Below, in pieces: positions 9,660-22,394 of a stretch of 64,000 nt of DNA. The position numbers and the translations under genes were made by a program. This stretch comes from Rhodococcus xishaensis (GTDB lineage Bacteria > Actinomycetota > Actinomycetes > Mycobacteriales > Mycobacteriaceae). Every line of letters begins with the position of its first letter. Positions within the stretch are counted from its first letter, which is position 1. The DNA is taken from assembly GCF_004011825.1 (NCBI RefSeq), contig NZ_RKLO01000003.1, positions 186,001 through 250,000 on the forward strand, read 5' to 3'. The notes beneath the pieces were generated by a model. It searched no databases. It had not been told where the DNA came from and saw only the letters and a list, made by a program, of their open reading frames with translations.

Positions 9660-10421
9660 TCAGCGCCCCTTCCAGATCGGTGCCCGCTTCTCGGCGAAGG
9701 CGGTGGCACCCTCACGTGCATCCTCGGAGACGAACACGGGGGCGATGGTCTCGAGCTGGCGTGCGAAAGCTTCATCGGAGGACCAGTCCCCGGACCGGAT
9801 GATCACTTCCTTCGTCTTGGCCACCGCAAGCGGGCCGTTGGCGGTGACACGTTCGGCGAGTGCGAACGCTCCCTCGAGCGCGGCGCCCGGCTGGGTCAAC
9901 GTGTTGACGAGCCCGTATGCGGCGGCCTCCTCCGCCGTGAACGAATCACCGGTAAGCGCATACTCCATCGCCTTCTGGTACGGGATTCGCTGGGGCAGGC
10001 GCAGCAGCCCGCCCGCGCCGGCGACCAGGCCTCGCTTGACCTCGGGGATCCCGAACTTCGCCTCGCGTGACGCGACTACCAGGTCCGTGGCGAGCACGAG
10101 TTCGGTGCCCCCGGCCAGCGCGTACCCCTCCACCGCAGCTATGAGGGGCTTGCGCGGCAGCGCCTCGGTGAATCCCAGTCCCCTACCCGGCGCCACGATG
10201 TTCTCGCCGGCCACGAACGCCTTGAGATCCATACCCGCACAGAAGTTTCCGCCGGCACCGGTGAGGATTCCGAGTGAGAGCCCATCGTCGCTGTCCAACT
10301 CATCGACAGCCGCCGCCAGTCCGCGGCTCACGGCACCGTTGATCGCGTTACGTGCATCCGGGCGGTTGATCGTGATCAGCAAGACACGGTCGCGGCGCTC
10401 GACCAGAACCTCATCCGACAT
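9660..10421 (-). CDS. Enoyl-CoA hydratase/isomerase (crotonase family)
   Basis: This 253-aa crotonase-fold protein has the N-terminal core RDRVLLITINRPDARNAI and the oxyanion-hole segment GAGGNFCAGMDLKAF (about residues 60-74). A second oxyanion region, AVEGYALAGGTELVLATDLVVA, follows at about 100-122. Family members hydrate trans-2-enoyl-CoAs or isomerise, dehalogenate or cleave CoA esters. The start at ATG 10421 lies inside the last codons of the upstream ligase gene (11-base overlap), which points to translational coupling. Together with the ligase it suggests activation and hydration of an acid. The exact acyl substrate is not identifiable. Confidence 0.87.
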   Translation of the reverse strand: MSDEVLVERRDRVLLITINRPDARNAINGAVSRGLAAAVDELDSDDGLSLGILTGAGGNFCAGMDLKAFVAGENIVAPGRGLGFTEALPRKPLIAAVEGYALAGGTELVLATDLVVASREAKFGIPEVKRGLVAGAGGLLRLPQRIPYQKAMEYALTGDSFTAEEAAAYGLVNTLTQPGAALEGAFALAERVTANGPLAVAKTKEVIIRSGDWSSDEAFARQLETIAPVFVSEDAREGATAFAEKRAPIWKGR

Positions 10422-11952
10422 CGGCACATCCCTTCGTCGTGGAACGATCCTCGAACCACGCACGCACCGAGCGCCGGTCGATTCGTCCCATGGAACTACG
10501 TGGTAGTACATCGATTTTCGCGCACAGCCGTCGCGGAAGCCGGTGGCCGAGAACCGCGTCGAGGAACTCACGGACAGCGTCGAGTTCGAGGTCCGCACCT
10601 GCCTTCGGGACCACGATGACGGCGAGGTCCCGCCCGCCAGCCGTCATCACGTCGACCGCAACAGCCTCGTCCACACCGGGGCACTCGAGCAGCGAGTCTT
10701 CGACCTCCCTGCTGTAGACCACGCCGCGAGACACCTCGATCGCGTCCGTTACGCGCCCTACGATTCGGAACCCACCGCCATGCCCGATCCGCGCGACGTC
10801 GCCGGTGCGCAGCCACCCACGCGCTGTCGTCCGCGCGGTGCCCTCGGGGTTACCCCAGTACCCCCGCATCACGCTCGGCCCGCGGCACCACAACTCTCCG
10901 ACACTGGCATCGTCTGCAGATCCCTTGACTGCGAACTCCATTCCACTATGAGGCAGTTCGGTCCGCCTGGTGACCGCGGTCATCGGCAGGATCATCCCGG
11001 CACCACCGGTTTCCGTCATTCCCCAGCCCGAGACGATCTGCGCTGCCGGAAAGCGATCGCACAACTGCTCCATCAGCGCAGGCGACACGATCTCGTCGTC
11101 GAGCGTGAGAACCCGCAATGATCCGAATGCAGCACCCGAGGTGCGCAGGGCCTGCCGACACAGATAGGTGGGAGCCGAAAGGCGTTCGATCCCTTCGACG
11201 TCGAAGGCGTGGCGCAGACTGTGGGCATCGAACTCGGGCGCCAGGACCACGGTGCCACCAGAGGCCAGGGTGGGCAGAAGTTGAGACACGCACACCGTGG
11301 CGGAACTGAGCGGCAGTGCCACGGCGTGCCACATGCCGTCCGGGGCAACACTCTCCGGCCCACCCCAGGATCGGATCACCGCCTCGATTGTGGAGAGCAC
11401 GTTCTCGTGGCTCAGCTCGACCCCTTTGGGCTGGCCCGTGGTGCCGCTGGTGTAGAACAGCAGCGCCGAATCGCCCAGCGCCGCACCGTCGTCGATGAAG
11501 GGTGTTCCGGTCGGCAGTTCCGAGTCGAGGACGAGGAGGCTTCCGCTGTCCGCGAGAATGCGACGTAACTGCGCGTCTGTGAGGCCAGGATGCACGGGCA
11601 CCGGCACGCCGCCGGCGAGCAGCACGCCGAGGAAGGCCTGCACCCACCGAACCCCATTCGGCATCCTGATCGCGACCCGATCGCCGATACCGACTCCCCG
11701 CTCGAGCATCCCACCCGCGATCCGGGACGCCGAGGTCCACAGTTGCGCGTAGGTCAGCCGCGGACCCCCACCGGCCTCGACGACGGCCTCGCGCCCCGCG
11801 TACCGGTGCGCGGCAACGTCGAGTAGTTCGGTCAAGCACGATGTGAGGCCGGTGAAGTGCAGCAAACCATCGGCGCAGCGCACCATCCGGTCATCATGCA
11901 ACCGACCGGTCTCGACGGGATACGCGAGCAGCGACGCCACAGCCACCTCCAC
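10411..11952 (-). CDS. AMP-dependent acyl-CoA ligase homologue with altered catalytic lysine
   Basis: This ANL-superfamily protein of about 513 aa has the adenylation motif LLFYTSGTTGQPKG and the later core motif GWGMTETGGAG. In the C-terminal motif, where the family normally has G-K (the catalytic lysine of the adenylation step), it reads SSMGRIDRRSV: arginine replaces lysine. The DNA (GGA CGA) supports this reading. It may catalyse only the thioester-forming half reaction, work slowly, or be a specialised ligase. It is first in the operon with the crotonase and deaminase. The start is ambiguous between GTG 11952 and GTG 11940; the latter has GGAGG just upstream. Confidence 0.82.
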   Translation of the reverse strand: MEVAVASLLAYPVETGRLHDDRMVRCADGLLHFTGLTSCLTELLDVAAHRYAGREAVVEAGGGPRLTYAQLWTSASRIAGGMLERGVGIGDRVAIRMPNGVRWVQAFLGVLLAGGVPVPVHPGLTDAQLRRILADSGSLLVLDSELPTGTPFIDDGAALGDSALLFYTSGTTGQPKGVELSHENVLSTIEAVIRSWGGPESVAPDGMWHAVALPLSSATVCVSQLLPTLASGGTVVLAPEFDAHSLRHAFDVEGIERLSAPTYLCRQALRTSGAAFGSLRVLTLDDEIVSPALMEQLCDRFPAAQIVSGWGMTETGGAGMILPMTAVTRRTELPHSGMEFAVKGSADDASVGELWCRGPSVMRGYWGNPEGTARTTARGWLRTGDVARIGHGGGFRIVGRVTDAIEVSRGVVYSREVEDSLLECPGVDEAVAVDVMTAGGRDLAVIVVPKAGADLELDAVREFLDAVLGHRLPRRLCAKIDVLPRSSMGRIDRRSVRAWFEDRSTTKGCADVG

Positions 11953-12078: not shown

Positions 12079-12942
12079 TCAGGCGGCTCGCTCGGCGTCC
12101 GCGCCGAGGATCTCGGTGAGCACCCGACCGAAGGTGTCGGGGTCGCCGATCAGCCAACCGTGACAGCCCGCCACCCGGTGTACGCGCGGGTTGCGAAGCG
12201 CACTGCGCAGGGACTCGAAGCTGGCCTGCGGAATGAAGGTGTCGCCCCGGCTCCACAGAAGCGTGGTCTTCAAACCGCGGTCGGCGATCCGGGTGGCCTC
12301 GGCGCGCAGGTCCGCGGTTCGCGCCAGCTCCCCGACCTGCCACAACGCAGACGGGCTGTGGACCATGTTGCGCACCGCGTCCCCGGTGATCGTCGCGATT
12401 GCCGAAACGGGTGTACCCGACAGGACCGCGTCGACAGCAGCGGAAACCCCCCACCGCCACAACGGCCGGTGCCTGATGTCGCGGACCTTCCCGTTCGGCG
12501 CCCATGCGCCACCGCCGACCGAGTTCACGAGCACGAGTCGCGATACGCGATCGCCGAGGTCATCCGCCGTTGCGAGGGCCACCCCGCCGCCGAAGGAGTG
12601 CCCCACGACGGTGACGGGTTCGTCGATGCCGAGCGAATCGAGGAATCTCCCAACCCACTTGGCGTACCCACCGAAACCGTGGTGCTGCGCCGACAGTGCG
12701 GCATTACCGCCGAAGCCCGGTAACGCCGGCGCGTACACGCGCACGCCCGTAGCGGCGAGCCGGTCGATCGCCCCCGCATAGGTCCGGTGGGTGAGACCGA
12801 AGCCGTGAAGGAAGATCACCGGTCGCCCGCGCCCGGCAACCCCGTAGGGGACCGTGCAGCCGTCGACGTCGACTTCGCGCCACGACGGTCCGAGGTCGGC
12901 GCGGGGGTCGATCGTCGGATGGAACTCCGGCTGTCGGCGCAT
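12079..12942 (-). CDS. Alpha/beta hydrolase
   Basis: This 287-aa alpha/beta-hydrolase has an oxyanion motif HGFGLT, a nucleophile elbow GHSFGGG (serine at about residue 117), a candidate acid in SRGDTFIPQ and a C-terminal histidine in CHGWLIGDP. There is no signal peptide, so it is cytoplasmic. Members include ester hydrolases, C-C bond (meta-cleavage product) hydrolases, epoxide hydrolases and haloperoxidases; I cannot choose between them. It lies directly downstream of three tandem LuxR-type regulators on the same strand. The DNA upstream of its start is homologous to the DNA upstream of the nearest regulator, so it is a candidate target of those regulators. Confidence 0.82.
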   Translation of the reverse strand: MRRQPEFHPTIDPRADLGPSWREVDVDGCTVPYGVAGRGRPVIFLHGFGLTHRTYAGAIDRLAATGVRVYAPALPGFGGNAALSAQHHGFGGYAKWVGRFLDSLGIDEPVTVVGHSFGGGVALATADDLGDRVSRLVLVNSVGGGAWAPNGKVRDIRHRPLWRWGVSAAVDAVLSGTPVSAIATITGDAVRNMVHSPSALWQVGELARTADLRAEATRIADRGLKTTLLWSRGDTFIPQASFESLRSALRNPRVHRVAGCHGWLIGDPDTFGRVLTEILGADAERAA

Positions 12943-12979
12943 TGGGATGCCTCACTTCGTGCAATCGGTGTCGGTTGGT

Positions 12980-13094
12980 AATAGCTTCGTTATCCGCACC
13001 CCATTTGCACCACGGTAGAATTACGTATTTATATACGTGTTCCGCGCCACAGGGTCCTCACGGTCACGTTCGTCCGCGAGGCCGATACCCCAGT
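12980..13094. repeat. Intergenic repeat, copy A (upstream of hydrolase)
   Basis: This whole gap between LuxR copy 1 and the hydrolase aligns without gaps to 15491-15605, the gap between LuxR copies 2 and 1, at a constant offset of 2511 bases. Shared blocks include TAGCTTCGT, TCCGCACC, ACGGTAGAA, TACGTGTT and GCGCCACAGG. Only this copy holds the AT-rich palindrome ACGTATTTATATACGT (13023-13038). It contains the presumed promoter of the hydrolase. Confidence 0.75.
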
Positions 13095-15461
13095 TCAAGG
13101 TGTTGATTCGTCGCGCTGTTCGGTGACCCATGCCGCGATCTGGGTGCGCGACCCGAACCCGAGTTTGGTGAGGACCCGCTCGACGTGGCCCTCTGCGGTG
13201 CGCAGCGCGATCATCAGCGTCTCGGCGATCTCCCGATCGGTCAGGCCACGAGCGACGAGTTCCGCGACCTCACGTTGGCGCGGGGTAAGCACAGACGTCG
13301 GAGCGGTCGGAATCGCGACTCGCATCGATGCGGTGGGCACATCACTCTGGGCCCGGGTGGGTTCGGTGCCGTCTTGCCGCGCGAGCGCGAACTCGACGGC
13401 CTCGGCGAACCCCAGGGCGGCACCCCGAGAGAAGGCCGCCTCGAAAGCCCGGTCACCGAGGATCCGACGGCACTGACTGCGGCACTCCTCGTGGTATTCG
13501 AGCATCGTTGGAATCGCCACCAGCGGCACGCCCATAGCGCGACGCATCCCCTCCGCCGCGCCCGCGAGGATCGCGCTTCGTTCGCCCTGCTGCGCATCAG
13601 CGGCGGCCCACGCCATTCCTTCGAGGCACCCTTCGCCGGCGAAATGATCGGCGACAGGCCGCGTGAGTGACAGCGCCTCGGCGAACAGCCCGGCCCCACG
13701 CTCGCGTTCACCTCGCCGCCACAGCGCGAGTCCGAGTATGTAAATGGCCTGGGCCTGGTACTTGCTCTCGCCGTTGGACCGTGTGATCGACAGCACTTCC
13801 TCGTGGTAAGCCGTCCCGAGGTCGGTGTCCCCGCCCATCCCGGCCGCCAGACCCAGCGACACCAGGGTGCAGACGAGTCGCTGCGGGTCGGGATGCGCCC
13901 GGAACGGCCCGAGCGCACCCTCGAGCAACTCGACGGCACGGACGCACTCGCCCTGGTAGAGCGCCTGCCGGCCGGCCGCGTGCAGGACGAGGGCATCGAC
14001 GTACGGGTCGTCGAGGACCCGGGCGAGGGGTTGCGCTCGAGCAATCAGGCCAGACGCCGCGGCGAAGTCTTCCTGCATGCCCGCGAGCAGGCTGGCATCG
14101 CAGAGCGCCGCGACGCGGATCGGATCGGGAACCTCGTCGGAGGCATCGAAGACGCGCGCAAACCAGCGCCGCCCCTCGTCGAGCATCCCTTTGCAGAACC
14201 AGAACGGGAACAGCGCCTTGGCCATCTGCACCCCGGTCGCTGCCTCCCCGGACCCGGTCGCGCAGAAGTCCAGGACCTCGCGCAGATTCGCGGTCTCCCG
14301 GGTGAGCCGTGCAATGATCTCCACCTGGCGAGGTCCGACCCAGTCGGCCTCTGAGTTCGTGATGAGAGCGTGGTACCAGTTCAGGTGCCGGCGCTGGCAC
14401 TGCGCCCGCTCTCCCGCCTCTTCGAGCTTCTCCTGCCCGTACTCACGCAACATCTCGAGCATCCGGTAGCGAACCACCGAACCGGACCGCTCCGCGATCA
14501 GGATCGACTTGTCGACCAGAGACCCCACCAAACCCAGCGTGTCCCCCGATTCAGCTTGGACGCATACGCCTTCGACGGCGTCCAGCTCGAATTCGCCTGC
14601 GAAAACCGACAACCAACTCCACAGCCGGCGCTCGTCCGGAGTACACAGCTCGTAGCTCCAATCGACACTCAATCGCAGCGTCTGCAGACGGGACGGAGCC
14701 ACCCGGCTGCCCGCGGTCAGCAACCGGTACCGGTCGGTGAGCCGCTCGAGGATCTGCTCCGGCGACAACACCCGCACACGAGCAGCCGCCAGCTCGATCG
14801 CCAGAGGCAAACCGTCCAGACGATGACAGATCCGGGCGATCGCAGCCCGGTTGCCCTCCGTGACGGCGAAACCCGGAACAGCGGCCTCGGCGCGCTCGAC
14901 GAACAGCGTCGCGGACTCGTAACTTGGCATCGCCCGAAGAGTCGGGGGCGAATCCGGGTCGGGAACCGGAAGCGGCGGCACCCGCAGAACCGCCTCACCA
15001 CCCACGTCGAGAGACTCCCGGCTCGTCGCGAGCACGCGAAGACCCGGGCACTTTCGCAGGAGCAGGTCGACCATCTCGGAGGCTGCCCCGACCAGGTGCT
15101 CACAGTTGTCGAGTAGGACGAGTAGATCCGCGTCGCCGAGGAAGTCCACCAGCAGATCGGTCGGCGAACGCGCGGCAAGATCGTGCAGCCTGAACGACGT
15201 GGCAACCGCGTTCGGGACCAAGTCCGGATCGTGCAGCGCCGAGAGTTCGACGAGCCATGCGCCGTCGCGGAAGTTCCGTTGCACCTCACCGGCAGCCTGC
15301 AACGCGAGCCGTGTCTTCCCGACGCCCCCGATGCCCGTCAACGTCACCAGACGAGACTCGGCGAGCAAACGCTTGGCCGCCGAGACCTCGCGACGTCGTC
15401 CGACGAATGTCGTCAGCGGGGCTGGAAGATTCCCGACCTTTCTCTCGGGGGCGGGCGACAT
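13095..15461 (-). CDS. ATP-binding LuxR-type transcriptional regulator, copy 1
   Basis: This 788-aa regulator has an N-terminal STAND/NB-ARC-like ATPase with FVGRRRE, Walker A GIGGVGKT (about residue 50) and Walker B LVLLDNCEHL. A large alpha-helical, TPR-like middle region follows (about 400-700). A LuxR/FixJ helix-turn-helix occupies the last 60 residues (LTPRQREVAELVARGL ... RTAEGHVERVLTKLG). Such proteins are thought to oligomerise on ligand and ATP binding and activate transcription. ATG 15461 was chosen because the protein there aligns with the starts of the other two copies (KVGNLPAPLTTFVG). It is the most diverged of the three tandem copies in the linker and HTH (LTPRQREVAELV against LTRRERQVADLV). 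The target genes are unknown; the adjacent hydrolase is a candidate. Confidence 0.88.
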   Translation of the reverse strand: MSPAPERKVGNLPAPLTTFVGRRREVSAAKRLLAESRLVTLTGIGGVGKTRLALQAAGEVQRNFRDGAWLVELSALHDPDLVPNAVATSFRLHDLAARSPTDLLVDFLGDADLLVLLDNCEHLVGAASEMVDLLLRKCPGLRVLATSRESLDVGGEAVLRVPPLPVPDPDSPPTLRAMPSYESATLFVERAEAAVPGFAVTEGNRAAIARICHRLDGLPLAIELAAARVRVLSPEQILERLTDRYRLLTAGSRVAPSRLQTLRLSVDWSYELCTPDERRLWSWLSVFAGEFELDAVEGVCVQAESGDTLGLVGSLVDKSILIAERSGSVVRYRMLEMLREYGQEKLEEAGERAQCQRRHLNWYHALITNSEADWVGPRQVEIIARLTRETANLREVLDFCATGSGEAATGVQMAKALFPFWFCKGMLDEGRRWFARVFDASDEVPDPIRVAALCDASLLAGMQEDFAAASGLIARAQPLARVLDDPYVDALVLHAAGRQALYQGECVRAVELLEGALGPFRAHPDPQRLVCTLVSLGLAAGMGGDTDLGTAYHEEVLSITRSNGESKYQAQAIYILGLALWRRGERERGAGLFAEALSLTRPVADHFAGEGCLEGMAWAAADAQQGERSAILAGAAEGMRRAMGVPLVAIPTMLEYHEECRSQCRRILGDRAFEAAFSRGAALGFAEAVEFALARQDGTEPTRAQSDVPTASMRVAIPTAPTSVLTPRQREVAELVARGLTDREIAETLMIALRTAEGHVERVLTKLGFGSRTQIAAWVTEQRDESTP

Positions 15462-15490
15462 GAACCGGCTCGCTTCCTCCCCCGCTGACA

Positions 15491-15605
15491 AATAGCTTCG
15501 TCGTCCGCACCCGATCGGCACGACGGTAGAACTACCTATCCCCGTACGTGTTCTGCGCCACAGGATCCTCCTGGGCGAGTGCCTCCGCTAGGTCGATATT
15601 CCAGT
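15491..15605. repeat. Intergenic repeat, copy B (upstream of LuxR copy 1)
   Basis: This segment is the gapless counterpart of 12980-13094. It links the end of LuxR copy 2 to the start region of LuxR copy 1 and must contain the copy-1 promoter. The palindrome of copy A is replaced here by CTACCTATCCCCGTACGT, so symmetry is lost while the flanking blocks are kept. It ends at the downstream edge of the duplicated gene unit. Confidence 0.72.
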
Positions 15606-17972
15606 TCAGGGCGTCGACTCGTGGCGTTGTTCGGCGACCCACGCCGCGATCTGGGTGCGCGACCCGAACCCGAGTTTGGTGAGGACCCGCTCGACGTGGC
15701 CCTCAGCGGTGCGCTGCGCGATCACCAGCGTCTCTGCGATCTCCCGGTTCGTCAAGCCACGTGCCACGAGATCCGCGACCTGACGCTCGCGACGGGTGAG
15801 CGCAGCCGTCACAGCGATCGGGTCCGCGATCCGCGTCGATGTGGTGGGCGCTTCCTTCTCGGCCCGCATCGGCTCGGAGCCGTCTCCCGGCGAGAGCGCG
15901 AACTCGACGGCGTCGGCGAACCCCAGGGCCTCACCCCGAGAAAAGGCCGTCTCGAAAGCCCGGTCACCGAGGATCTGCCGGCACTGTCTGCGGCACTGCT
16001 CGTGGTACTCGAGCATTCCCGGAACCGCCACCGGCGGCACCCCCATCTCCCGGCGCATTGCTTCCGCCGCACCCGACAGGATTGCGCCCCGTTGGCCCTG
16101 GCGCGCGTCGGCAGCAGCCCACGCCATCGCCTCGAGGCACCCCGCGCCGGCGAAGTGATCGTCGACCTCCGGTGTGAGTGGCAGCGCTTCGGCGAACAGC
16201 CGGGCGGCACGCTCGCGTTCACCTTGCCGCCACAACGTCAACCCGAGCACGAACATTGCCCCGGCCTGATAGAAAGTCGCGCCGTGGGCCCGCGCAATCG
16301 ACAGCAGTTCCTCGAAGTAAGCCGTCCCGCGTTCGGGATCCCCGCACATCCCGGCCACCATGCCCAGCGCCCCGAGGGTCCAGATGACTAGTGATAGCTC
16401 CGGACGCGCTCGGAACGGCCCGAGCGTGGGCTCGAACAACTCGGCTGCACGAGCGCACTCACCCTGATACAGCGCCTGCGCGCCGGCCGCGTGCAGGACG
16501 AGAGCATCGACGTACGGGTCCCCGAGGACCCGGGCGAGGGACCGCCCCCGTGCGATCAGCTCGGACGCGGCGGCGAAGTCTTCCTGCATGCTCGCGAGCA
16601 GGCTGGCATTGCAGAGGGCGGCGACGCGGATCGGATCGGGAACCTCATCGGAGGCATCGAGGACACGTCCGTACCAGCGTCTGCCCTCGTCGAGCATCCC
16701 CTTGCAGAACCAGAACGGGAACAGCGCCTTCGCCATCTGCACCCCGATCGCCGCCTCCCCGGACCCGGTCACACAGAAGTCGAAAGCTTCACGCAGATTC
16801 GCGGTCTCCCGGGTGAGCCGGGCGATGATCTCCACCTGACGTGGACCGACCCAGTCTGCCTCCGCACGCTGGACCAGAGCGCCGTACCAGTCGCGGTGTC
16901 GGCGACCGCACTCCGTCCGCTCACCCGCCTCGACGAGCCTTTCCTGCCCGTACTCCCGCAACATCTCGAGCATCCGATAGCGGACCACCGCATCGGACCG
17001 CTCCGCAACCAGGATCGACTTGTCGACCAGAGACCCCACCAGAGTTTGCACGTCCCCCGACACCACGTCGGCGGACACCCCTTCGACGGCGTCCAGCTCG
17101 AACTCGCCCGAGAAGACCGACAACCAACTCCACAGCCGGCGCTCGTCCGGAGTACACAGCTCGTAGCTCCAATCGACACTCATCCGCAGTGTCTGCAATC
17201 GCGACGGAGCCACCCGGCTGCCCGCGGTCAGCAACCGGTACCGGTCGGTGAGCCGCTCGAGGATCTGCTCCGGCGACAGCACCCGCACACGAGCGGCCGC
17301 GAGTTCGATCGCCAGAGGCAAACCGTGCAGGCGATGACAGATCCGGGCGATCGCAGCCCGGTTGCCCTCCGTGACGGCGAAACCCGGGACAGCGGCCTCG
17401 GCGCGCTTGACGAACAGCGTCGCGGACTCGTAGCTCGGCATCGCCTGCAGGGTCGGCGGCGAATCCGGGTCGGGAACCGGAAGCGGCGGCACCCGCAGAA
17501 CCGCCTCACCACCCACGTCGAGAGACTCCCGGCTCGTCGCGAGAACACGCAGACCTGGGCAGCTGCGCAGAAGCAAGTCGACCAACTTGGAGGCAGCCCC
17601 CAGCAGGTGCTCACAGTTGTCCAGCAGGACAAGCAGATCCCTGCTGCCGAGGAAGTCCACCAGCAGATCGGTCGGCGAACGCGAGGCAAGATCGTGCAGC
17701 CTGAACGCTTCGGCGACCGCGTTCGGGACCAAGTCCGGATCATGTAGCGCCCCGAGTTCGACGAGCCATGCGCCGTCACGGAAGTCGCGCTGCACCTCAC
17801 CTGCGACCTGCAACGCGAGCCGCGTCTTCCCGACGCCCCCGATGCCCGACAACGTCACCAGGCGAGACTTGTTGAGCAGACGTTTTGTCGCCGAGGATTC
17901 GCGCCTTCGTCCGACGAATGTCGTCAGCGCAGCTGGGAGATTTCCGACCCTTCTCTGGGTGGCCGTAGCCAT
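15606..17972 (-). CDS. ATP-binding LuxR-type transcriptional regulator, copy 2
   Basis: The 788-aa middle member of the triplet has the same architecture as its neighbours: FVGRRRE, Walker A GIGGVGKT, Walker B LLVLLDNCEHLLG, a TPR-like helical region and a C-terminal LuxR HTH (LTRRERQVADLVARGLTNREIAETL). The start at ATG 17972 is preferred over the upstream GTG at 17993, because the sequence GAAGAGAGACGGTCCATG is shared exactly with copy 3, where it precedes the only reasonable start. Long stretches are identical to copies 1 and 3. The extreme C-terminus (ESTP) follows copy 1, while the HTH follows copy 3, giving a mosaic pattern. Each gene is separated from the next by only 80-150 bases. Confidence 0.88.
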   Translation of the reverse strand: MATATQRRVGNLPAALTTFVGRRRESSATKRLLNKSRLVTLSGIGGVGKTRLALQVAGEVQRDFRDGAWLVELGALHDPDLVPNAVAEAFRLHDLASRSPTDLLVDFLGSRDLLVLLDNCEHLLGAASKLVDLLLRSCPGLRVLATSRESLDVGGEAVLRVPPLPVPDPDSPPTLQAMPSYESATLFVKRAEAAVPGFAVTEGNRAAIARICHRLHGLPLAIELAAARVRVLSPEQILERLTDRYRLLTAGSRVAPSRLQTLRMSVDWSYELCTPDERRLWSWLSVFSGEFELDAVEGVSADVVSGDVQTLVGSLVDKSILVAERSDAVVRYRMLEMLREYGQERLVEAGERTECGRRHRDWYGALVQRAEADWVGPRQVEIIARLTRETANLREAFDFCVTGSGEAAIGVQMAKALFPFWFCKGMLDEGRRWYGRVLDASDEVPDPIRVAALCNASLLASMQEDFAAASELIARGRSLARVLGDPYVDALVLHAAGAQALYQGECARAAELFEPTLGPFRARPELSLVIWTLGALGMVAGMCGDPERGTAYFEELLSIARAHGATFYQAGAMFVLGLTLWRQGERERAARLFAEALPLTPEVDDHFAGAGCLEAMAWAAADARQGQRGAILSGAAEAMRREMGVPPVAVPGMLEYHEQCRRQCRQILGDRAFETAFSRGEALGFADAVEFALSPGDGSEPMRAEKEAPTTSTRIADPIAVTAALTRRERQVADLVARGLTNREIAETLVIAQRTAEGHVERVLTKLGFGSRTQIAAWVAEQRHESTP

Positions 17973-18077
17973 GGACCGTCTCTCTTCCTCCACCCCTGCG
18001 GATTCGACGGTACGCGAACCCCATCGAGGGACCAGGCGAGACCGGACGACTTCGTCCGCCAGGCCCGATACCCCAGT

Positions 18078-20459
18078 TCAGTGTGTTGCGTCGTCGTGCT
18101 GTTCGGCGACCCACGCTGCAATCTGGGTGCGCGATCCGAACCCGAGTTTGCTGAGAACCCGCTCGACGTGACCCTCTGCCGTTCGCTGGGCGATCACCAG
18201 CGTCTCGGCGATCTCCCGGTTGGTCAGGCCGCGTGCCACGAGATCCGCGACCTGACGTTCGCGACGGGTGAGCGCAGCTTGCGCAGCGATCGGGTCCGTG
18301 ATCCGCGTCGATGTGGTGGGCGCTTCCTTCTCGGCCCGCATCGGCCCGGTACCCTCTCCCGCCGCCAGCGCGAACTCGACGGCGTCGCCAACCCTCAGGG
18401 CCGCACCCCGAGAGAAGGCCGCCTCGAAAGACCGGTCCCCGACGAGTCGCCGACACTGTCTGAGGCAATTTTCGTGGTACTCGAGCATCGTCGGAATCGC
18501 CACCGGCGGCAAGCCCATTTCCCGGCGCATCGCCTCGGCCGCACCCGACAGGATTGTGCCCCGTTCGCCCTGCCGCGCATCGGCGGCGGCCCACGCCATT
18601 CCCTCGAGGCACCCTTGGCAGGCGAAGTGATCGTCGACCGCCCGCGTGAGTGGCAGCGCTTCGGTGAACAGTCGGCACCCGCGATCGCGTTCGCCTCGCC
18701 GCCACAACGCGAGGCCGAGCATGAACATTGCCCTGGCTTGATAGGTACTCGCGCCGTGGGCCCGCGCGATCGACAGTGCTTCCTCGTGGTAGGCCGTCCC
18801 ACGTTCGGCGTTCCCGCTCGTACCTTCCACCAATCCCAGCCCCAACAGAGTCCGGATGAGCTGTGGCAGGTCCGGGCGTGCTCGGAGCGGCCCCAGCGCA
18901 GGCTCGAACGACTCGATGGCAAGAGCGCAGTTGCCCTGGTAGACCGCCTGCCGGCCGACCGCGTGCAGGACGAGAGCATCGACGTACGGATCCCCGAGAA
19001 CCCGGGCGAGGGATCGCGCCCGAGCAATCAGGCCGGATGCGGCGACGAAGTCTTCCTGAAAGCCCGCGAATGAGCTGGCAGAGCAGAGGGCGGCGACGCG
19101 GATCGGATCGGGAACCTCGTCGGAGGCATCGAGGACACGGCTGTACCAGCGCCGCCCCTCGTCGAGCATCCCCTTGCAGTCCCAGAACGAGTACAGCGAC
19201 TTCGCCATCTGCACCCCGGTCGCCGCCTCGCCGGACCCCGTCGCGCAGAAGTCGAGGGCTTCACGCAGATTCGCGGTCTCCCGGGTGAGCCGGACAATGA
19301 TCTCCACCTGGCGCGGGCTGACCCAGTCCGCCTCGGCCCGCTCGGCGAGAGCGCCGTACCAGTCCAGGTGCCGGCGCCGGCACTCCGTCCATTCTGCTGC
19401 CTGGACGAGGTTGTCCTGCCCGTAGTCCCGCAACGTCTCGAGCATCCGGTAGCGAACCACCGAACCGGACCGCTCCGCGATCAGGATCGACTTGTCGACC
19501 AAAGACTCGACCAGGGCCTGCACGTCCCCTGGTACAGCGTCAGAGCACACGCCTTCGACGGCGTCCAGCTCGAATCCGCCCGCGAAGACCGACAACCAAC
19601 TCCACAGCCTGCGCTCCTCCGGTGTACACAGCTCGTAGCTCCAATCGACACTCAGCCGCAGCGTCTGCAGTCGGGACGGAGCCACGCGGCTGCCGGCGGT
19701 CAGCAGCCGGTACCGGTCGGTGAGCCGTTGCAGAATCTGCTCCGGCGACAGCACCCGCACACGAGCGGCCGCCAGCTCGATCGCCAGAGGCAGGCCTTCC
19801 AGGCGATGACATATTCGGGCGATCGCAGCCCGGTTGCCCTCCGTGACGGCGAAACCCGGGACAGCGGCTTGGGCACGCTCGACGAAGAGGGTCGCGGACT
19901 CGTAACTCGGCATCGCCTGCAATGTCGGCGGCGAGTCCGGGTCGGGAACCGGCAGCGGCGGCACTCGTAGGACGGCCTCGCCACCGACGTCGAGGGGCTC
20001 CCGGCTCGTGGCGAGCACACGAAGGCGTGGACAGTTTCGCAGCAGCAGGTCGACCAGCTTGGAGGCCGCCCCGACCAGATGCTCGCAGTTGTCGAGCAGG
20101 ATGAGCAGATCCCTGCTATGGAGGAAGTCCACGACGAGATCGGTCGGCGACCGCGCACCCCGATCCTGCAGCCTGAAACGCGCGGCAACTGCGTTCGGGA
20201 CCAACTCCGGATCGCGTAGCTCCGCGAGTTCCACCAGCCATGCGCCGTCACGGAAGTCGCGTTGCACGTCGCCCGCGACCTGCAAAGCGAGCCGCGTCTT
20301 CCCGACGCCCCCTATACCCGTCAACGTCACCAGGCGAGATTCGGTGAGCAAACGCTTGGACGCAGAGACCTCACGACGGCGTCCTACGAATGTCGTCAAT
20401 GTGGCCGGGAGATTCCCGACCTTTCTATTGGGGGCCGTCCTCTGGGGGACCGTCGACAT
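18078..20459 (-). CDS. ATP-binding LuxR-type transcriptional regulator, copy 3
   Basis: The 793-aa first-transcribed member of the triplet has Walker A GIGGVGKT at residues 48-55, Walker B LLILLDNCEHLVG at about 115, a helical TPR-like middle and an HTH in about the last 60 residues. It differs from copies 1 and 2 mainly in scattered substitutions and at the C-terminus (AEQHDDATH). ATG 20459 is preceded by GAGGAAGAGAGACGGTCC, the same leader as copy 2. It is divergent from the acetyltransferase gene at 20600, with 140 bases between them. No sensor or ligand domain other than the helical region is visible, so the signal is unknown. Confidence 0.88.
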   Translation of the reverse strand: MSTVPQRTAPNRKVGNLPATLTTFVGRRREVSASKRLLTESRLVTLTGIGGVGKTRLALQVAGDVQRDFRDGAWLVELAELRDPELVPNAVAARFRLQDRGARSPTDLVVDFLHSRDLLILLDNCEHLVGAASKLVDLLLRNCPRLRVLATSREPLDVGGEAVLRVPPLPVPDPDSPPTLQAMPSYESATLFVERAQAAVPGFAVTEGNRAAIARICHRLEGLPLAIELAAARVRVLSPEQILQRLTDRYRLLTAGSRVAPSRLQTLRLSVDWSYELCTPEERRLWSWLSVFAGGFELDAVEGVCSDAVPGDVQALVESLVDKSILIAERSGSVVRYRMLETLRDYGQDNLVQAAEWTECRRRHLDWYGALAERAEADWVSPRQVEIIVRLTRETANLREALDFCATGSGEAATGVQMAKSLYSFWDCKGMLDEGRRWYSRVLDASDEVPDPIRVAALCSASSFAGFQEDFVAASGLIARARSLARVLGDPYVDALVLHAVGRQAVYQGNCALAIESFEPALGPLRARPDLPQLIRTLLGLGLVEGTSGNAERGTAYHEEALSIARAHGASTYQARAMFMLGLALWRRGERDRGCRLFTEALPLTRAVDDHFACQGCLEGMAWAAADARQGERGTILSGAAEAMRREMGLPPVAIPTMLEYHENCLRQCRRLVGDRSFEAAFSRGAALRVGDAVEFALAAGEGTGPMRAEKEAPTTSTRITDPIAAQAALTRRERQVADLVARGLTNREIAETLVIAQRTAEGHVERVLSKLGFGSRTQIAAWVAEQHDDATH

Positions 20460-20599
20460 GGACCGTCTCTCTTCCTCGCCCCTGCAGATTCGACGGTACG
20501 CCCACCGCCCTACAACGCCATACCAGGAGTGGACGAGTCGAGAGCCACGAACGAAGATCCCTACTACAACCGTCCGGGCACCGCACTACCGTTGACGTC

Positions 20600-21304
20600 G
20601 TGGACGGCCATCAGATCGACATCATCCGGCTCGCGTGGGCGCGCGAACTCGGCCTTCCCGACCGCGCCCTGGACGACTCTGGCGCCCGCCACGTAAGGGT
20701 TGACGACCTGGAGGACCGGATCCGCTTCGTGACGATCGCCGGCGCCGCAGCACTCGTCGGGCCCACGTGGGCCGTCGAACGCTCGCGTTCGTGCTCCAAC
20801 GACGAACTCGCGCGTTCCGGTGGCCTGCTTGCGCTCGCGAAGGACCACTCGGGCCGTGGATCCGGACCCGTAGAACTGGGTTGGGCTGCCGACTTCGGGA
20901 GCGCTGTCGCGGTCGAGGAACCCCTGGTCTCGCATGAGTTCGAACATGTTCTGGCCCTCGAGGCGGTATGCCCGCCCGACGATGTCGCCGAGGCCAGGCT
21001 GACCGCCAAGGCGAACTGGTTCACCGTCGTGGACGACGACCACGACCCGCTCGCATCAGCCGGATACCTGGAATGGCAGGGCATCATCGCCGACATGGGC
21101 ACACTGACGGCGCCGGCGGCCCGGCGGCGCGGGTACGGTGCTACCGCGACACAACTCGCCACCAACGACGCTCTCGATGCCGGCCTGATCCCGCAATGGC
21201 GTGCACACCGGGACAACATCGCCTCGCGCCGGCTGGCCACGAACCTCGGCTACGAGGAACTGGGAACATTCGTGTCGATCGTCGTGGCGCCCAGTACCGT
21301 GTGA
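20600..21304 (+). CDS. GNAT-family N-acetyltransferase
   Basis: This protein of about 234 aa has a C-terminal GNAT fold. The acetyl-CoA pyrophosphate-binding loop is in APAARRRGYGATATQLA, preceded by the beta strand IIADMGTLTAP and followed by the helix and strand N-ASRRLATNLGYEELGTFVSI. The N-terminal 100 residues show no motif I recognise. GTG 20600 is the best in-frame start; the open frame continues upstream into LuxR copy 3, which is not credible as coding on this strand. No clear ribosome binding site is seen. The acceptor substrate is unknown. It is divergent from the regulator triplet and co-directional with the next gene, 28 bases downstream. Confidence 0.75.
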   Translation: MDGHQIDIIRLAWARELGLPDRALDDSGARHVRVDDLEDRIRFVTIAGAAALVGPTWAVERSRSCSNDELARSGGLLALAKDHSGRGSGPVELGWAADFGSAVAVEEPLVSHEFEHVLALEAVCPPDDVAEARLTAKANWFTVVDDDHDPLASAGYLEWQGIIADMGTLTAPAARRRGYGATATQLATNDALDAGLIPQWRAHRDNIASRRLATNLGYEELGTFVSIVVAPSTV

Positions 21305-21332
21305 ATCAACGCGACACATGGAGTTGATCACG

Positions 21333-22394
21333 ATGAGCGACGACGGTACGCAGCGCTCGCCCGGCACCGAGAGCGGTGCCAGCTTCGTGGACCCGGGCAA
21401 GGAGTTCACCCGGGACATGCGGTACATCACGACGCGCATCACCGCCGACGGCCGCGACGGCTACCCCGTCGAACCGGGTAGATATCGGCTCATCGTCGCG
21501 CGCGCCTGCCCGTGGGCCAATCGGGCGATGATCGTCCGCCGACTGCTCGGACTGGAAAACGTTCTGTCCATGGGGATCTGCGGCCCCACGCACGACGAAC
21601 GCAGTTGGACATTCGATCTCGACCCCGAGGGCGTCGACCCGGTCCTGAAGATCCCGCGACTCCAGGACGCGTACTTCGCCCGCTTCCCGGACTACCCACG
21701 AGGCATCACGGTGCCGGCCATCGTCGAGATTTCGACTGGCCAGGTGGTCACCAACGACTTCCCGAACATCACCCTGGACCTGTCCACCGAGTGGAAGGAG
21801 TTCCACCGCGACGGTGCGCCGGATCTGTATCCCGAGGATCTGCGGAGCGAGATCGACGAGGTCGCCGAACTCGTGTTCCGGGATGTCAACAACGGCGTGT
21901 ACCGATGCGGCTTCGCCGGTTCGCAAGAATCGTACGAGAGCGCGTACGACCGACTGTTCGAGCGCCTCGACTGGCTGACCGAGCGACTGTCTGACCAGCG
22001 ATTCCTGGTGGGCGACACCATCACCGAGGCCGACGTGCGCCTGTTCACCACCCTCGCCCGGTTCGATGCGGTGTACCACGGGCACTTCAAGTGCAATCGG
22101 AGCAAACTGTCGGAGATGCCGGTGCTGTGGAACTACGCGCGGGATCTGTTCCAAACCCCTGGGTTCGGGGACACGATCGATTTCGCCCAGATCAAGGAGC
22201 ACTACTACATCGTTCACAAGGACATCAACCCGACACAGATCGTGCCGAAGGGGCCGGATCTGTCGCATTGGCTCGAACCACACAACCGGGAAACGCTCGG
22301 TGGCCGTCCATTCGGGGACGGCACTCCACCGCACCCGCCACTTCCAGAAGAGGTTGTACCGCTCTCACATTGGGCGACTACCGAGCGGGACTGA
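21333..22394 (+). CDS. Xi-class glutathione-transferase-like protein (glutathionyl-hydroquinone reductase family)
   Basis: This 353-aa protein has an N-terminal thioredoxin-fold domain with the catalytic motif ACPWANR (cysteine at residue 59). The C-terminal all-helical domain contains the Xi-class features RDVNNGVYRCGFA and FLVGDTITEADVRLFTTLARFD. Family members (YqjG, ECM4) remove glutathione from glutathionyl-hydroquinones. In an actinomycete, which makes mycothiol instead of glutathione, the equivalent would be mycothiol-dependent; that is inference. ATG 21333 is preferred because GGAG lies nine bases upstream. A role in quinone or aromatic-catabolism stress fits the catabolic neighbourhood. 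Confidence 0.85.
   Translation: MSDDGTQRSPGTESGASFVDPGKEFTRDMRYITTRITADGRDGYPVEPGRYRLIVARACPWANRAMIVRRLLGLENVLSMGICGPTHDERSWTFDLDPEGVDPVLKIPRLQDAYFARFPDYPRGITVPAIVEISTGQVVTNDFPNITLDLSTEWKEFHRDGAPDLYPEDLRSEIDEVAELVFRDVNNGVYRCGFAGSQESYESAYDRLFERLDWLTERLSDQRFLVGDTITEADVRLFTTLARFDAVYHGHFKCNRSKLSEMPVLWNYARDLFQTPGFGDTIDFAQIKEHYYIVHKDINPTQIVPKGPDLSHWLEPHNRETLGGRPFGDGTPPHPPLPEEVVPLSHWATTERD

Follow-up and report, generated by a model that had tools for sequence, protein, structure and literature searches.

LAL/STAND LuxR regulators are large proteins of about 800-1000 amino acids (aa), and for most STAND regulators, to our knowledge, neither inducers nor binding sites are known. According to passages of two reports (PMC6468293, PMC10427625), TPR-STAND activators are kept closed by ADP and sensor contacts, and the inducer leads to ATP binding and to oligomers. 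In part of another report, the LAL regulator TpdR of R. jostii TMP1 is described as required for the induction of a catabolic operon by small molecules (PMC6099782). Here we describe an array of three tandem genes for such regulators in a 64,000-nucleotide stretch of the Rhodococcus xishaensis genome (contig NZ_RKLO01000003.1; the window), together with a 115-bp duplicate of the region preceding the adjacent hydrolase gene and a candidate operator element. In our best reading the array would offer three sensors with one DNA-binding output, and its last gene would be transcribed like the target gene.

The three genes are intact open reading frames (ORFs) arranged head to tail on the minus strand, each separated from the next by 84 bp. 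We call them c1, c2 and c3 in order of transcription; c3 and c1 are copies 1 and 3 of an earlier sequence-only reading of this DNA. That reading had proposed three large same-strand regulators, and the products of 793, 795 and 808 aa, all encoded on the minus strand by genes of 83-85% nucleotide identity, agree with it; their protein identity is 78-82%. The start leader that it had seen in two of the copies is also present, as GTACCGTCGAATCYGCAGGG and GAGGAAGAGAGACGGTCCATG in c2 and c1. In profile searches each product matched nucleotide-binding, TPR and C-terminal GerE (LuxR) helix-turn-helix (HTH) profiles, the GerE HTH scoring 47.8-54.3 bits in the three copies against a cut-off of 23.5. 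NB-ARC scores were above the curated cut-off of 23.5 bits in c1 (25.1) and c2 (23.6) and below it in c3 (21.7), and TPR_12 scores were above the curated cut-off of 30.1 bits in c2 (49.0) and c1 (36.7) and below it in c3 (25.3). The motifs GIGGVGKT, LL[VI]LLDN and GLPL, which we take to be the Walker A, Walker B and GxP-type motifs of the STAND nucleotide-binding oligomerization domain (NOD), are intact in all three copies, as is the recognition-helix stretch RTAEGHVERVL. Based on these profiles, motifs and the helix stretch, we assign c1, c2 and c3 to the STAND/LAL LuxR regulators. The TPR of c3 has no close partner and the first half of its HTH is changed, but its recognition helix is not. 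The GTG at 15521 that opens the c3 ORF lies inside the duplicated promoter region described below, and translation more likely begins at the ATG at 15461. All three copies contain a short imperfect palindrome around CGGTACCGG (14717-14740, 17228-17251 and 19700-19723), which is probably just coding sequence. A phage origin and a defence-system role of the array were dropped, as six peptide patterns had no match in viral_contigs and the PADLOC profiles gave HTH and TPR cross-matches only.

The genus sample comprised 14 genomes, namely that of R. xishaensis, that of R. spongiicola (G012) and 12 others. Related genomes had been named as the place to look for the same array, and R. spongiicola does carry the triplet, with the order and both junctions alike; its copies are called s1-s3 (NZ_RKLN01000001). 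Both species are placed in the R. equi sublineage in a passage of PMC11893733. Ten of the 12 other genus genomes have a single copy between conserved neighbours (14-15 kb fetched per locus), 62-67% identical to c2 and flanked by the hydrolase on one side and by the acetyltransferase and glutathione S-transferase genes on the other, and in most of these loci a ligase and then an enoyl-CoA hydratase gene continue the neighbourhood. In the remaining two, a contig end truncates the gene (G002) or the locus was not recovered (G009). Among 301 family genomes, no match outside the genus exceeded 53% identity when the best three candidates per genome were scored. The triplet and its junctions in the sister species therefore indicate an inherited tandem expansion and hardly an assembly error. 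The statement that such regulators usually occur singly was too strong, since at least six same-strand STAND-LuxR pairs within 1.5 kb were found in 3 of 61 family genomes, the best 16 candidates or fewer being scored per genome. The pairs lie at G033:C27, C2 and C23, at two places in G037:C1, and at G058:C18.

Similarity between the copies switches along the genes, and does so beyond the HTH/C-terminus switch noted before. In sliding comparisons, c2 is nearest to s2 over codons 1-60 (identity 0.94-0.98) and c3 is nearest to s3 in the first window of that range. Over codons 100-660, c2 is closest to s3 in 21 of 29 windows (0.85-1.00) and to c3, s2 or s1 in the other eight. In the TPR (codons 505-690), c1 pairs with s1 and c2 with s3; c3 is unpaired, its TPR having no counterpart in R. 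spongiicola. The windows from codons 700 and 720 give 0.89 and 0.92 for c1-c2 and 0.88 and 0.89 for s1-s2, and from codon 720 c1-c2 reach 0.92-0.93 versus 0.72-0.74 for c2-c3. By eye, the linker has AEKEAPTTSTRI in common between c1 and c2 and RGAPAASMRIAEP between s1 and s2. The proposed mosaic, a c2 joining a c1-like HTH to a c3-like C-terminus, is visible in the identities for the HTH, whereas the C-terminal part is present but weak (0.92 for c2-c3 versus 0.89 for c1-c2 in the last window, from codon 760 on). The tail EQHDDAT occurs in c1 and s1 only; among the 10 single-copy relatives, G010 and G006 have EQR[DR]E and G003 has EHRHEST. Since these tails are unlike EQHDDAT, c2 probably kept the older tail, and we did not accept its C-terminal likeness to c3 as conversion.

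None of 2000 permutations reached the observed value in the pairwise homoplasy index (PHI) test. In a longest-run permutation test, c1-c2 (codons 720-734) and c2-s3 (codons 628-678) each had P = 0.0005 and pass correction for 15 pairs, and five more pairs had P = 0.004-0.048 (uncorrected); with third positions alone, c2-s3 still passes (0.001). Maximum-likelihood (ML) trees unite c2 with s3 and c1 with s1 at 100% in the TPR, c2 with s2 at 97% in the leader, and s1 with s2 at 97% and c1 with c2 at 70% in the HTH segment. In approximately unbiased (AU) tests the TPR rejects positional orthology (1e-41) and the leader rejects the TPR topology (0.013). The TPR and the whole gene rejected positional orthology throughout, and segments A, B, C and E did not; strict within-species clustering of the three copies was rejected by the whole gene and by segments A, C, D and E, B being the exception. 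Site patterns, for segments picked after the sliding-identity result, place c2 with s2 rather than s3 at 18:2 over codons 0-60 versus 13:63 over codons 505-690 (p=2e-9), and group copies 1 and 2 by species rather than by position at 10:5 over codons 690-762 versus 2:33 over codons 505-690 (p=1.5e-5). The largest exchanged tract is the body common to c2 and s3. Its synonymous difference (codons 95-690) is 14.5% versus 24.3% in seven flanking genes (p=2.7e-6), which exchange between both lineages after the species split would explain; that of c1-s1 is 31.5% (p=0.002 against the same genes), and c2-s2 and c3-s3 show no difference from those genes. These results support recombination between the copies as real, with the linker and HTH as its statistically weakest part. 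Gene conversion after duplication, as first proposed, is thus retained in its recombination component, and for the c2-s3 body unequal crossing-over with loss fits equally well.

The two junctions of the array differ in what precedes the downstream gene. The c1/c2 junction bears the regulator's own promoter element GTACCGTCGAATC, whose GTACCGTCGA part is the same in all 12 aligned genus loci. At the c2/c3 junction, a 115-bp stretch that runs from the c2 stop to within the c3 leader resembles the 115 bp that follow the c3 stop on the hydrolase side, with a local score of 100 and a maximum of 26 in 100 shuffles; the likeness ends at GAAGCTATT, after which the regulator leader starts. The sequence-only reading did not contain this duplicate. 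R. spongiicola has the same duplicate before s3 (gapped alignment score 77 versus 26 in shuffles). From the contents of the junctions, therefore, the regulator promoter precedes both c1 and c2, and the promoter of the next gene precedes c3. A perfect inverted repeat, ACGTAT-ATAA-ATACGT, lies before the hydrolase gene at 13023-13038. This palindrome, ACGTATNNNNATACGT, was considered as an operator but is found in two sister species only of 12 aligned loci, so it was not used as one.

The duplicated region contains a composite candidate element, ACASGTA..GGTAGWTCTACCGTC (the GGTAGWTCTACC element), and the hydrolase promoter region is exactly GGTAGWTCTACCGT in 5 of 10 single-copy loci (G001, G003, G006, G008 and G010). 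In the 301 family genomes the composite pattern has 10 matches, each just 3' of a STAND-LuxR gene, and the reversed pattern has none. Half of the matches (five) are at the array locus, and the other five belong to a second regulator locus, whose protein is 47-51% identical. At this second locus the 12-mer occurs with at most two mismatches in all 11 fetched genes, starting 44-69 bp past the stop; none of 19 other fetched paralogs has it there, and 63 of 2000 random stretches contain it. L085, one of the 19, has a one-mismatch copy upstream of the gene. In the tree, the 11 second-locus genes and the 16 array-locus genes each form a clade with support of 1.0, and these clades are not sister to one another; L047 joins the array-locus clade and L072 and L074 join the second-locus clade, all three without the element. 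Its presence at two non-sister clades argues against the element as a mere passenger of a recent duplicate, and its position 3' of the second clade makes it a candidate operator or promoter. The gene that follows the second locus encodes a ChsH2-like zinc-ribbon/OB-fold protein (Pfam, one case, G006), unlike the hydrolase on the array side. At L049 (G000:C20:205050-207463), a paralogous STAND-LuxR gene is followed by the GGTAGTTCTACCGTC element and then, by alignment, by a ChsH2-like zinc-ribbon/OB-fold gene. In the 14 genus genomes the short pattern GGTAGNNCTACCGT gave 28 rows. Sixteen of them represent one CG-centred palindrome that lies elsewhere in 8 genomes and was counted on both strands; another 11 are located immediately 3' of a STAND-LuxR gene, and the last is elsewhere (G001:C1). 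A palindrome ACGGTAGCGCTACCGT is present once per genome in 8 of the 14, with flanks alike in the two cases viewed (L056 near 5489 and L057 near 5096). From the placement of the element, the regulators are candidates for binding its inverted repeat GGTAGNNCTACC, as a NarL/GerE-type operator, and the element may function as binding site, as core promoter or as both.

The conserved neighbours (Table) suggest a link to acyl-CoA metabolism. With NCBIfam, the hydrolase meets no cut-off, the ligase meets none among the 25 of 105 models listed, and the hydratase passes one broad subfamily model, PRK08252, among the 25 of 72 models listed. In the TPR, the ratio of nonsynonymous to synonymous differences (Nd/Sd) is 1.1-1.4 in five copy pairs versus 0.39 (c1-s1) and 0.44 (c2-s3) in orthologous pairs, and 0.5-1.28 in seven single-copy ortholog pairs. 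For the nucleotide-binding domain the contrast with c1-s1 is weak, except in s1-s3 (p=0.006) and c2-c3 (p=0.03).

Table. Regulator array, promoter regions and neighbouring genes, in window positions.
Feature	Position	Strand	Basis or remark
c1, first copy transcribed	18078..20459	-	STAND/LAL LuxR regulator, 793 aa, ATG start 20459
c2, middle, mosaic copy	15606..17993	-	795 aa from GTG 17993 or 788 aa from ATG 17972
c3, last copy	13095..15521	-	ORF of 808 aa from GTG 15521; probable start ATG 15461
Regulator promoter element before c1, GTACCGTCGAATCTGC	20484..20499	-	alignment of genus loci
Copy of regulator promoter element before c2, GTACCGTCGAATCCGC	17998..18013	-	junction comparison
115-bp duplicate of pre-hydrolase region, before c3	15491..15605	-	89/115 identical, ungapped
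Original region, c3 stop to hydrolase gene	12980..13094	-	115-bp alignment
Candidate operator/promoter ACACGTACGGGGATAGGTAGTTCTACCGTC, palindrome GGTAGTTCTACC, before c3	15522..15551	-	pattern searches
Hydrolase copy of the element	13007..13038	-	GGTAG half degenerate in own species
Alpha/beta hydrolase, conserved neighbour, proposed target	12079..12942	-	neighbourhood comparison
AMP-binding acyl-CoA-ligase-like protein, conserved neighbour in most loci	10411..11952	-	
Enoyl-CoA hydratase/isomerase family protein, neighbour in most loci	9660..10598	-	
Divergent GNAT acetyltransferase ORF, conserved neighbour	20390..21304	+	true start further inside
Glutathione-S-transferase-like protein, conserved neighbour	21201..22394	+	

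The reading that we favour, with slightly better than even confidence, is that of tandem-expanded, recombined regulators controlling adjacent genes, with c3 behind a captured target promoter. An ancestral single STAND/LAL LuxR gene would have controlled the adjacent hydrolase and acyl-CoA genes and would have been multiplied in tandem in the common ancestor of R. xishaensis and R. spongiicola. One duplication would have taken the pre-hydrolase region along, so that c3 came to be driven by a duplicate of the target promoter, and homologous recombination (unequal crossing-over and/or gene conversion) would then have shuffled segments between the copies. Their products would have kept one recognition-helix stretch and the STAND motifs and would differ in their TPR sensors. 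As predicted from known TPR-STANDs, c1, c2 and c3 would undergo nucleotide-driven oligomerization upon inducer: an inducer at the TPR sensor would free the ADP-locked autoinhibition, the ATP-bound proteins would oligomerize, and the oligomers would activate promoters bearing ACASGTA..GGTAGWTCTACCGTC. Presumably c1 and c2 would be made from the regulator's own promoter and c3 when the target promoter is on, as a cascade or positive feedback. A fuller form of this idea, a multi-input switch in which recombination homogenizes three interchangeable STAND cores, mixed oligomers are possible, and three TPR sensors act on one operator with feedback of c3 through the target promoter, its sensor joining in only after the pathway has been switched on, appears improbable to us.

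Several observations weigh against the favoured reading. The c1-c2 run has P=0.009 with third positions alone and fails correction for 15 pairs, and in the HTH/linker segment, where pairing of copies 1 and 2 by species is best, positional orthology is not rejected (AU 0.23-0.28). Two of the seven single-copy ortholog pairs reach TPR Nd/Sd of 1.12 and 1.28, so the signal for different inputs is at most suggestive, and faster sensor evolution was not accepted as proof of new ligands. The graded or multi-ligand control proposed earlier is accordingly left as a suggestion: the TPR differs between copies and is conserved in orthologs, but those two single-copy pairs differ as much. As to the element, GGTAGNNCTACCGT gave its 28 rows versus 23 for a reversed control in the 14 genus genomes, and GGTAGNTCTACCGT with one mismatch gave 55 versus 67 for its control; the short-pattern counts alone are therefore at background, and only the placement of the short pattern is unusual. 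The composite pattern was built from the same loci, and what it adds is absence elsewhere. The hydrolase copy of the palindrome is degenerate in R. xishaensis and in R. spongiicola, and the R. spongiicola copy before s3 has one mismatch. TACCGT may be a mere -10 box, and an element next to non-sister regulators could be the site of a third protein. That the conserved GGTAGWTCTACCGTC stretch is a core promoter only, and not the regulators' binding site, is a possibility that we regard with some doubt. TACCGT resembles a -10 and ACASGT, 17-18 bp before it, a -35, a spacing that suits a promoter; the promoter regions of the regulator and the acetyltransferase likewise contain TACCGT in 12 of 12 aligned loci, and the background count of the short pattern points the same way; yet in 301 genomes the full element is confined to the 3' sites of two STAND regulator clades and is missing from all 19 other fetched paralogs, and a sigma-70 consensus scan of 12900-20800 found zero promoters.

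Alternative histories of the copies have to be considered as well. The c2 and s3 bodies might be true orthologs from an ancestor with at least four copies, of which each species lost different ones, with little need for gene conversion. This is quite possible, though we rate it below an even chance: the 21 of 29 windows, the TPR tree support of 100% and the unmatched TPR of c3 suit it, but the linker-HTH likeness of c1 and c2 demands an additional event, and a synonymous difference of 0.145, below the 0.243 of the flanks (p=2.7e-6), is not predicted by plain orthology. The array may instead be a neutral leftover of tandem duplication and recombination, with redundant copies, drifting sensors and the c3 promoter region as a passenger of the breakpoint, which we find rather unlikely. 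Against it stand the intactness of all copies in both species, with copy-copy synonymous distances as great as those of the flanking genes between the species, the conservation of the TPR between orthologs (c1-s1 dN, the nonsynonymous divergence, 0.047 at dS, the synonymous divergence, 0.40), and the element before c3, which keeps its palindrome in R. xishaensis while the hydrolase copy has lost one half. It draws on the recurrence of close pairs in the family, on the fact that most single-copy ortholog pairs likewise have the TPR as their faster domain, and on the c2/c3 junction as a simple breakpoint product. An assembly artefact was rejected as very unlikely, close to excluded: the genome is a draft of 22 contigs, but the sister species matches the array in copy number, order and both junctions, the copies differ by 15-17%, and the two junctions are unlike each other.

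The array consists of known parts in an arrangement without a report in the best-matching open PMC papers, and neither this array nor gene conversion in LAL/STAND LuxR regulators is reported among those papers, subscription papers being outside this scope. The passages of PMC3466318 concerned with LuxR architectures and duplications in Actinobacteria do not contain it. New here are the sharing by sister species, the proposed promoter capture by c3 and the element common to two regulator clades. If true, promoter capture would offer a simple route from a duplication to a regulator that joins its own regulon. The array with its relatives also provides a comparative set of one DNA-binding output, three sensors of similar age, ten single-copy relatives and a candidate operator at two clades, and gene trees of tandem regulators are better built by segment.

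Among known systems, AfsR (PDB 8k60) was the sole PDB sequence match at E <= 0.01 covering the NOD region; according to part of its report, its SARP DNA-binding domain is N-terminal, whereas the array proteins carry a C-terminal LuxR HTH (PMC10936776). The STAND-LuxR pairs of G033, G037 and G058, which represent other genera, are of the same family and also on the same strand, 0.1-1.5 kb apart, but they are pairs and the array is a triplet. PH0952 and MalT, as described in passages of PMC6468293, resemble the array in having an NOD, a TPR sensor and the Walker and GLPL motifs. TpdR and MalT, to judge from the parts of their reports concerned (PMC6099782, PMC10427625), likewise have N-terminal Walker A/B motifs, a C-terminal LuxR HTH and a similar size. 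The candidate site of the array is an inverted repeat with a 2-bp spacer, whereas MalT has direct repeats and one is proposed for TpdR in a passage of PMC6099782. Unlike TpdR and MalT, the array comprises three recombining tandem copies.

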